Below the pieces are notes generated by a model that saw only the letters and a program-made list of their open reading frames with translations, did not search any database and was not told the origin of the DNA. DNA of 64,000 nt from Halorubrum lacusprofundi ATCC 49239 (GTDB lineage: Archaea; Halobacteriota; Halobacteria; Halobacteriales; Haloferacaceae): the NCBI RefSeq assembly GCF_000022205.1, contig NC_012029.1, positions 124,001 through 188,000 on the forward strand, written 5' to 3'. The translations under genes were made by a program, and so were the position numbers. Shown in pieces: positions 4,482 through 59,917 of the stretch. Position 1 is the stretch's first letter. Each line of letters begins with the position of its first letter.

Positions 4482-4625
4482 TTTATAAGGGATCTACAGC
4501 GTCGTTGTCGGCTGTTTATAAGTGGTTGCTGGCGGATCGACGGTGAACACCTCCAAAGCCCCAGCCGCGAGGCCCGTTGGCCGCTCGCCGGCGCACGCCA
4601 CCGCCTCGGCGACGACTTTTATAAG
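4482..4625 (+). repeat. TTTATAA-bounded hairpin element, copy F (internally deleted)
   Basis: Occupies most of the gap between two convergent genes. It begins with TTTATAAG (4482-4489), repeats TTTATAAG at 4515-4522, then has the family head GTGAACACCTCCAAAGCC and left hairpin arm AGCCGCGAGG (from 4563). It then jumps straight to the family tail (GCGCACGCCACCGC) and ends with TTTATAAG at 4618-4625. The right hairpin arm and the C-rich middle found in the other copies are absent, so this is an internal-deletion derivative of 144 bp. No gene is present here. Confidence 0.8.
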
Positions 4626-4658
4626 TAACACCGAAACGTCGCAAAATCGCAGGTCGCC

Positions 4659-29371: not shown

Positions 29372-29640
29372 TTTATAAGTCATTTTTGTCGGTGAGTATC
29401 TCTAAAGCCCTAGCCGATCGCTTATAAACGGTTCCTGACGGCAGATCGACGGTGAACACCTCCAAAGCCCCAGCCGTGAGGACAGCGCAGGCGACGCAAG
29501 CACTGCAGGGAGTGAGTGAGGCGAACGACCGAAGCGCGCAGCGAGAGTGCGCTGTCCTCACGGCTGCCCCTTTGAGTCCCGCCCCGCCCCGCACAGCACC
29601 GCCACACCTCCCCACCCTCGTCGGTCGCCCGTCGCTTCGC
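29372..29640 (+). repeat. TTTATAA-bounded hairpin element, copy A (inverted loop, right end lost)
   Basis: Starts 17 nt after the regulator stop. It has two head units: TTTATAAG at 29372 with a degenerate CTCTAAAGCCCTAGCCG, then CTTATAAA at 29421 with GTGAACACCTCCAAAGCC. The main hairpin has arms AGCCGTGAGGACAGCGCA (29472-29489) and TGCGCTGTCCTCACGGCT (29548-29565). The 58-nt loop between them (29490-29547) reads in the reverse-complement orientation relative to the loops of copies B, C, D and E. The right-hand TTTATAA end is missing; near 29625-29650 the element gives way to a copA remnant. Confidence 0.8.
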
Positions 29641-29771
29641 TCGGGCTGCTCCAGCCCGCGCTGGCCACCGGGGCGATGACGCTGTCCAGCGTGAGCGTGC
29701 TCGCCAACAGCCTGCTGTTCCGGCGGTACGAGCCGGACCGCGACTACCGGCTGCTCGGTCGGCTGCGGTGA
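29640..29771 (+). pseudogene. copA: C-terminal stub of a P-type Cu-transporting ATPase
   Basis: The only coding-like segment in this gap. It reads GLLQPALATGAMTLSSVSVL then ANSLLFRRYEPDRDYRLLGRLR before TGA at 29769-29771. The part around PALATGAMTLSSVSVLANSL matches the last membrane helix of CopA-type P1B ATPases, which end in just this way. About 44 of some 750-850 codons remain. There is no start, and the sequence before it belongs to the repeat element. Position next to copZ and the TRASH regulator supports a lost copA. The identification rests on a short segment, hence moderate confidence. Confidence 0.7.
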
Positions 29772-29790
29772 GGCGAGCCGCTAGCTCCGA

Positions 29791-36173: not shown

Positions 36174-36545
36174 TTTATAAGTAATTGATCTCGTTCTGAC
36201 GGCGAATGTCTCCAAAGCCCCAGCCGCTCGCCTATAACTGATTGAAAGATCTCCGAGGAACACCTCCAAAGCCCCAGCAGCGAGGCCGGCGCACGCTCGT
36301 TGCGCTCCTCACTCGCGTTGCTCGCTGCGGTGCTTACGTCGCCTGCGCCGGCCTCGCTGCTGCCCCTTTGAATCCCACCCCGCCCCGCACAGTACCGTAC
36401 CTCACGCCTCTCCAGCCTCGCCGCTCACTTGGGGCTCCCTTCGGTCGCCCGCGTCGCTCGCGGCGTCCCTCGTGCGACGCTCCTCGCGCCCAGTGGGCGC
36501 TCGGAGGCGCGCGCCACCGCTGCTGTCGTCCTATCCGTTTATAAG
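36174..36545 (+). repeat. TTTATAA-bounded hairpin element, copy C
   Basis: Fills the gap between polC and the convergent KDPG aldolase gene; no gene inside. Two head units, at 36174 (TTTATAAG...CTCCAAAGCCCCAGCCG) and 36231 (CCTATAAC...CTCCAAAGCCCCAGC). The main hairpin has arms AGCAGCGAGGCCGGCGCA (36276-36293) and TGCGCCGGCCTCGCTGCT (36344-36361) around a 50-nt loop. A C-rich spacer, a CGCCGC...GCGGCG stem and a third hairpin GCGCCC-AGT-GGGCGC (36486-36500) follow. It ends at TTTATAAG 36538-36545, 13 nt from the aldolase stop codon. Confidence 0.85.
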
Positions 36546-36557
36546 GAGATCGCCGCT

Positions 36558-51027: not shown

Positions 51028-51327
51028 TTTATGAGTGGTTGACGGCGGATCGGCAGCGAACACCTCCAAAGCCCCAGCCGCGAGGACAACGCACGCTCGC
51101 TGCGCTCCTCACTCGGTCGCCCGCGCTCCTTCGTTTCGGTGCTTACGTCGCCTGCGTTGTCCTCGCGGCTGCCTCTTTGAGTCCCGCCCCGCACAGCGAC
51201 CGCACCTCACACCTCCCCAACCTCGTCGGTCGCCCTCCGTGTTACTCCGGACGACCGACTCCCTCGCGCGTGCGACTTCGCGCCCTCGGGGCGCTCGTCG
51301 GCACGCGCCACCGCGTTTATTTATAAA
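51028..51327 (+). repeat. TTTATAA-bounded hairpin element, copy B (single head unit)
   Basis: A 300-bp complete copy between convergent genes, starting TTTATGAG 15 nt after the stop at 51013. Main hairpin arms AGCCGCGAGGACAACGCA (51076-51093) and TGCGTTGTCCTCGCGGCT (51153-51170), 59-nt loop. Second hairpin GTCGGTCG (51225-51232) with CGACCGAC (51252-51259). Third hairpin GCGCCC-TCG-GGGCGC (51280-51294). It then has CACGCGCCACCGCG and closes with TTTATAAA (51320-51327). The rest of the gap to 51429 holds ATTTAAATACC and no gene. Confidence 0.85.
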
Positions 51328-57210: not shown

Positions 57211-57560
57211 TTTATAAATCGCTGACCGCGGATCGGCGGGGAACGCCTTCAAATCTCCAGCCGCTCGATCGTACGTGATCGACGACTCCGCGGTGAACAT
57301 CTTCAAAGGGGCAGCCGCGAGGCCGGCGCACGCTCGCTGTGCTCCTCACTCGGTCACTAACGCTCCCTCGCTGCGGTGCTTACATCGCCTGCGCCGGCCT
57401 CGCGGCTGCCCCTTTGAGTCCCGCCCCAACCACACCGCAACCGCAGCCTCACACCTCCCCAGCCTCGCGGCTCCCTCCGGTCGCCGCGTCCCTCGCACGA
57501 TGCTGTTCGCGGCCGCTTATAAGCGGCCGCTCACAGGCGCGCGCCGCCGCAGGTCTAGCG
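57211..57560 (+). repeat. TTTATAA-bounded hairpin element, copy D (27-bp perfect arms)
   Basis: Occupies most of the 468-nt gap before argS; no gene inside. Two head units begin at 57211 (TTTATAAA) and about 57268. The main hairpin arms 57304-57330 and 57390-57416 are perfect over 27 bp, because CAAAGGGGCAGCC replaces the usual CAAAGCCCCAGCC. The loop is 59 nt. A GCGGC/GCCGC second stem follows, then GCGGCCGC-TTATAA-GCGGCCGC (57509-57530), then the GCGCGCCGCCGC tail. The argS promoter (CCTTTTAGGCC, about 57603) comes after it. Confidence 0.85.
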
Positions 57561-59479: not shown

Positions 59480-59826
59480 CGGGATGTTGCTGGCGACTCT
59501 ACGGTGAACGCCTCCCAGGCCTCAGTCGTTTTGCTTATAAACGGTTACTGCCGGATCGACGGTGAACACCTCCAAAGCCCCAGCCGCGAGGGCGGCGCAC
59601 GCTCGCTGCGCGCTTCAGTCGCTCGCGTTGCTCGCTCCAGTGCTTGCTTCGCCTGCGCCGCCCTCGCGGCTGCCCCTTTGAGTCCCGCCCGTCAGCAACC
59701 ACACCACAGCCTCACGCCTCCCCAGCCTCGTCGCTGGCGCTGATGGCGCCAGCGACTACCTCGCGCGTGCTACTCGCGGGCCTACGGCCCGCTCGCAGAC
59801 GCGCGCCACCGCACCTCATTTATAAA
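59480..59826 (+). repeat. TTTATAA-bounded hairpin element, copy E
   Basis: Fills the 477-nt gap between argS and aRF1. A degenerate head unit (59480-59530) precedes the full copy starting CTTATAAA at 59534. Main arms AGCCGCGAGGGCGGCGCA (59582-59599) and TGCGCCGCCCTCGCGGCT (59654-59671), 54-nt loop. Second hairpin GTCGCTGGCGC-TGATG-GCGCCAGCGAC (59730-59756). Third hairpin GCGGGCC-TAC-GGCCCGC (59776-59792). The tail is GCGCGCCACCGC and the end TTTATAAA (59819-59826). The aRF1 promoter (CGTATTTAGGG, about 59905) is separate. Confidence 0.85.
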
Positions 59827-59917
59827 CGATACTGCCATCGACGCCGTGTGACGAGGTACTGTCGCGCTGGCGGGGAGGTCAAAGCTTACTTACACGCACG
59901 CCGCCGTATTTAGGGTA

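Follow-up and report, generated by a model that had tools for sequence, protein, structure and literature searches.

The window, by which we mean the whole 64,000-nucleotide stretch of Halorubrum lacusprofundi ATCC 49239 DNA analysed here, contains a complete, single-headed copy of a repeat element at positions 51028..51326 (copy B). It was recognised by its sequence and by its match to R1, a covariance model of the main hairpin (P1) for which we used the minus-strand sequences of 35 gapless Halorubrum copies. In window order, copy B consists of a TTTATGA head border (51028..51034), P1 (51063..51189), a C-rich linker, a second hairpin P2 (51225..51259), a third hairpin P3 (51266..51308) and a TTTATAA tail border (51320..51326). 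The three hairpins fold on the minus strand, the opposite of the strand on which the earlier note had written them. P1 includes an outer CAAAG/CTTTG stem and a 3x3 G.G loop, and it matches R1 with 126.1 bits (E = 3.8e-21). P3 contains one tandem GA/AG position, and the pairs of P2 covary across copies. The P1 stem pairs quoted previously for copies A to E were exact when rechecked, and the third hairpin does vary in step between copies, with P3 pairs covarying in the alignment. The 12-bp stem that had been quoted is also exact, but it is merely part of P1, which is a long imperfect hairpin with about 50 nt in each arm.

Parts of one repeat are present at all six sites in the window where a shared element had been proposed, although the copy at 4482 lacks P1. 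The head word ACCTCCAAAGCCCCAGCCG is matched 7 times at up to 3 mismatches (0.01 expected), and the P1 3'-arm word has 5 matches (0.00 expected). Copy D (57211..57552, minus strand, P1 at 57300-57426) has had the CCC/CCC mismatch of its outer arm converted to a perfect palindrome. Copy E (59540..59830, minus strand, P1 at 59569-59690) has a degenerate first head in front of it at 59480-59535. Copy C (36174..36546, minus strand, P1 at 36263-36380), identified by sequence and R1, has two heads, as does copy A (29372..29630, plus strand). Copies A, C, D and E are all preceded by an additional head, degenerate to varying degrees. In copy A the inner P1 is inverted relative to its flanks–it scores 103 bits on the plus strand (best match 29453-29578) and 70 on the minus–and the P2/P3 tail is lost. 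The sixth site (4482..4628) is a deletion derivative in which the head is joined to the tail end, and R1 has no significant match there. Across Halorubrum, copies are about 300-480 bp long and intergenic, overlapping a predicted gene in only 9 of 204 cases; P1 alone is about 120 nt. TTTATAA borders flank the Halorubrum copies, as the earlier note said, and are specific to this genus.

In place of its missing tail, copy A is followed by the 3' end of a P-type ATPase gene (window 29638-29772). A similar gene end adjoins a TnpB gene at locus L239 and accounts for the BLAST match that we saw at this locus among IS200/IS605 loci. An end segment with CAAAGCCCC (or GAAAGCCCC) occurs in tandem at three loci (L318, L328 and L337) and in the window at 29372-29430 and 36174-36236; the units in L318 and L337 are nearly identical and about 50-75 bp long.

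By BLAST, the window genome contains 63 matching pieces of the element, and matches are present in all 52 of the 52 Halorubrum genomes. Because R1 E-values are rough and the hairpin also scores on the opposite strand, we relied on strong matches alone. At E < 1e-7, R1 finds about 43 places in the window genome, a few of which are the same copy on both strands, and all but one of them are on the 2.74-Mb main chromosome. Gathering copies across Halorubrum and building a covariance model, as had been suggested, showed an element that is present in every genome of the genus that was searched and covaries strongly. The earlier note was wrong to confine such sequences to Halorubrum: in the class Halobacteria, R1 has matches in 214 of the 292 genomes (60 of the 77 genera), and individual genomes from other genera give 78, 74, 52 and 47 matches. 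Matches also lie on named plasmids of Halorussus, Halobaculum, Natrinema, Haloarcula and others. There was no match to the element in phage records. Rfam gave no match at the gathering score, merely chance matches at E-values up to 5, and in the literature searched we found nothing on this repeat family except the papers on PATE and SMR elements discussed below. P1 has at least three stem types, I (L009-type), II (L073) and III (L125); a GAA/GA internal loop is conserved on the minus strand of types II and III.

In an alignment of 163 copies, the pairs of columns with the highest mutual information correspond for the most part to nested Watson-Crick pairing within P1, P2 and P3; the exceptions lie at close range, where P1 copies of different type are mixed. 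In Halorubrum, 98.3% of cells in the paired columns are paired, and there are 150 double-change cells compared to 34 after shuffling; none of 500 shuffles, which retain the relatedness among copies, reached the observed value. For 75 copies from other genera the corresponding values are 92.1% paired and 657 double-change cells versus 194 (0 of 500 shuffles), in an alignment that was fitted to R1 and so leans towards its structure. Sliding the structure along the alignment reduces pairing to 27-47%, and 121 copies have 71 distinct 12-nt stem arms between them. The slid controls and this stem-arm diversity leave little doubt that the covariation is genuine. Since no shuffle and no slid control matches it, in Halorubrum or in other families, it supports the earlier proposal of a selected RNA or DNA structure.

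The strand that folds is the minus strand. All 35 copies fold better on this strand with RNA parameters, and 34 of the 35 with DNA parameters. In the helices, minus-strand G.U pairs outnumber A.C pairs by 233 to 105, and this balance favours the minus strand in 91 sequences and the plus strand in 21 (29 to 17 when counted by column, p = 0.10). On the minus strand the apex is a GNA triloop in 108 of about 150 copies. Several hairpin positions are never Watson-Crick on this strand: three G.G positions and four tandem GA/AG positions, three of them in P1 and one in P3. At nearly all such positions the non-Watson-Crick state is kept in more than 90% of copies, a figure that for G.G is biased upwards because copies were selected by a CCCC word. 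The GGG/GGG outer arm has been palindromised in only 2 of 204 copies. The minus-strand internal loops of P1 are conserved class-wide, as GACGYAAGCAC with GYGCAGCGAG, and GGG/GGG. A kink-turn was considered and dropped, as the GA positions lack a 3-nt bulge, and so was HEARO or another guide RNA, for want of a match in Rfam.

The element is retained in many species at two sites whose flanks can be recognised, and the orthologous copies there differ in their P1, P2 and P3 modules. Retention of sites with differing modules fits vertical inheritance combined with exchange among copies, and the element is best read as old and mostly vertically inherited. The closest other copy in the window genome is about 80-82% identical over its full length (BLAST), and the lack of near-identical copies means that there was no recent burst. 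Comparison of flanks for empty sites, as the earlier note had advised, gave no clean empty site in a sample with one genome per species and species far apart. Among 177 copies for which both neighbouring genes were called, convergent genes surround 71 and divergent genes 20, while the two codirectional arrangements account for 44 and 42; gaps between convergent genes are preferred, and there is no orientation rule relative to genes. Runs tests for clustering of strands along the chromosome were not significant (p = 0.30 in the window genome, where 1.9 Mb of the main chromosome was covered, and p = 0.18-0.42 in genome G255). Along the chromosome there was no regular spacing or strand rule, and orientation was not significantly linked either to the strand of nearby genes or to replication skew.

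Some Halorubrum copies, about 10%, carry an outer inverted repeat, TGATCGATAGCGGGAGTGGGT: in 204 copies it is present 22 and 21 times at one end and 14 times at both, most copies having none, and 40 of 41 occurrences of the word are near parts of the element. The flanked copies include those at L005, L009, L027, L125 and L134. A second repeat is also associated with the element. It is about 60 bp long and forms two hairpins of the type GAGGGACC..GGTCCCTC-TGGCA-GCCGGC..GCCGGC, whose stems vary in step, and it is mostly found within the element (for example at L028, L030 and L066 (E site), and at positions 355487, 400193 and 460559 of the window genome's chromosome). It lies inside 23 of 204 copies, compared to 2.1 expected, so this double-hairpin repeat lands preferentially within element copies. 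In other genera, P1 forms inverted doublets, similar to REPINs, with GGGTGGGAC ends face to face (L267, L277, L313, L327, L341, L270 and L335).

The design of P1 is shared with the left ends of haloarchaeal IS200/IS605 elements. At TnpB loci and in plasmid elements including ISHma12, the left-end hairpins have short stems alternating with tandem GA/AG, a GAA loop, and stems that change together (AC/GT, GC/GC and CC/GG), all on the strand that codes for tnpA/tnpB. Left-end hairpins whose tips vary and whose tandem GA and GAA loop are kept occur at L238, L245, L247 and L343-L347. The single strand that is handled in this type of transposition is the coding strand, as in IS608, and GCGAAGC-type GNA caps make exceptionally stable DNA mini-hairpins. 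The IS200/IS605 left ends differ from our element in having other flanking words (GGCGCTAAGKCCCCTTCC...) and in being much shorter, and in 60 IS200/IS605 loci R1 has only partial matches to them, none of them full (best E = 0.034). The sequence match between P1 and the left ends is modest, so the two may, but need not, share descent. BLAST searches with the copies against the same 60 loci gave only small hairpin inserts and chance matches. No transposase is linked to the element, and 11 of the 52 Halorubrum genomes, all of which contain the element, have no Y1 transposase above the cut-off. Transposons of the IS605 type are handled in single-stranded DNA form (PMC3119063).

The known elements that most resemble this one are the PATEs of Haloquadratum walsbyi, which are non-coding, palindrome-bearing, heterogeneous, related to IS605 and attacked by the repeat SMR-A (PMC3119063). 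Compared with the descriptions of PATEs, our element is likewise non-coding, a few hundred bp long (too short for a transposase gene) and heterogeneous, with palindromes that are prominent near its ends–here P1 and P3, which sit near the two TTTATAA borders–and it is a target of small hairpin repeats; the GA/GAA design of its palindromes recalls that of IS605-type transposons. The second repeat resembles SMR-A, by description, in being a double hairpin that sits within the palindromes of a first element, but it is about 60 bp long compared to about 110 bp for SMR-A. Three differences from PATEs are that the sequence motifs of P1 are kept class-wide, that about 10% of Halorubrum copies have outer inverted repeats, which PATEs lack, and that we saw no mobility. 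PATEs are also characterised by insertion without target duplication and by mobility between strains. On these comparisons, the element probably works like a PATE and is probably a PATE itself. It also resembles the REP/REPIN sequences associated with RAYTs, with many intergenic imperfect hairpins per genome that are mostly inherited vertically, and with inverted doublets in some genera. We did not assign it to that system, because the element is about 120-300 bp long compared to 20-40 bp for a REP, and because of the Halorubrum genomes without a Y1 gene.

The explanation that we favour, with confidence only a little better than even, is that this is an old, non-coding, non-autonomous PATE-like hairpin element that folds as single-stranded DNA. 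The minus strand, when single-stranded, would fold into the long P1, in which short Watson-Crick stems alternate with tandem G.A positions and the apex is mostly a GNA triloop; P2 and P3 would come after it in Halorubrum. The folded strand would probably be recognised by an enzyme acting on single-stranded DNA hairpins, either an IS200/IS605-type enzyme or a relative from the host, and the copies may have spread by transposition. That the folded molecule is DNA is suggested mainly by the likeness to IS200/IS605 left ends, the handling of such elements as single strands and the stability of GNA caps. Events at the DNA level also favour the PATE-like reading: inverted P1 cores (about 5 of 170 copies), palindromised arms and swapped modules. 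So do the covariation, the conserved purine-purine mismatches on the minus strand, the second repeat found inside copies, the lack of TATA-like words near P1 in other genera and the preference for convergent gaps with no orientation rule. It is weakened by the lack of an insertion or empty site, of a linked transposase, of Y1 genes in 11 genomes and of a full R1 match at IS200/IS605 loci, and also by the outer inverted repeats, by the lack of a significant link between orientation and replication skew, and by the long-lasting conservation of P1 sequence motifs, which exceeds what a passive mobile element would need.

We consider it unlikely that the element is instead a structured non-coding RNA, transcribed from the minus strand, encoded tens of times per genome and working by way of the internal loops that are conserved in it. 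Class-wide covariation, the purine-rich nature of these loops, the G.U excess on the minus strand and the occurrence of copies on plasmids as well as chromosomes in many genera are all consistent with such an RNA. Autonomous non-coding RNA genes are argued against by the 75 copies from other genera, where the 160 nt to each side of P1 contain no recurring TATA-like word. In Halorubrum, TATA-like words do flank the element as its borders, but the one on the 5' side of the minus strand is about 11 nt from P3, and with the usual spacing from TATA to start, transcription would begin within P3. The lack of an Rfam match and the tolerance of inverted P1 cores also count against an RNA. Transcription of PATEs has been reported: strong transcription for one beside a Halorubrum virus gene, and a non-coding RNA in the case of one from Halobacterium (PMC10544981). 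Of the two possibilities raised in the earlier note, a structured RNA with a TATA-like border and a hairpin mobile element, the latter fits better, given the minus-strand signal, the absence of TATA-like words next to P1 outside Halorubrum and the IS200/IS605 left-end design, although no clean empty site was found.

Somewhat less probable again is a domesticated, immobile DNA site, a hairpin or cruciform to which a host protein binds in the service of chromosome organisation, replication or transcription termination. It would account for the concentration of copies on the main chromosome of the window genome (about 43, versus one on other replicons), for the retention of sites between species, for the lack of near-identical copies and for the preference for convergent-gene gaps, but not for the plasmid copies in other genera, the rapid turnover of stems with loss of whole modules, or the lack of regular spacing and of a strand rule. 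Finally, it is very improbable that there is no selection at all and that template switching at quasi-palindromes, with gene conversion among copies, made the arms match: palindromised arms, inverted cores and module exchange at orthologous sites fit this idea, but it is largely refuted by the persistence in most copies of tandem GA and GGG/GGG mismatches that correction would erase, and it predicts no strand bias, whereas G.U on the minus strand exceeds A.C (233 to 105). Template-switch correction, which the earlier note had suggested could create the pattern, does occur, as in copy D and the inverted cores, but it cannot be the main cause.

The hairpin family is real: it is under strong selection, specific to one strand and class-wide in its range. 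A more far-reaching interpretation, which we regard as possible but doubtful, is that such hairpins, long kept by purifying selection and numbering up to about 80 in a genome, are read by a dedicated protein other than Y1, and so make up either a new multi-copy RNA or an archaeal REPIN-like system of single-stranded DNA. Strong covariation need not indicate an RNA gene, and evidence on strand and promoters must be checked. R1 could be used to mask or annotate copies in any haloarchaeal genome. If our interpretation is true, a good part of haloarchaeal intergenic sequence would be a single conserved and structurally testable family, and PATE-like elements would gain a clear folding strand and a tandem G.A hairpin code, which would offer a route to the protein that reads the element.
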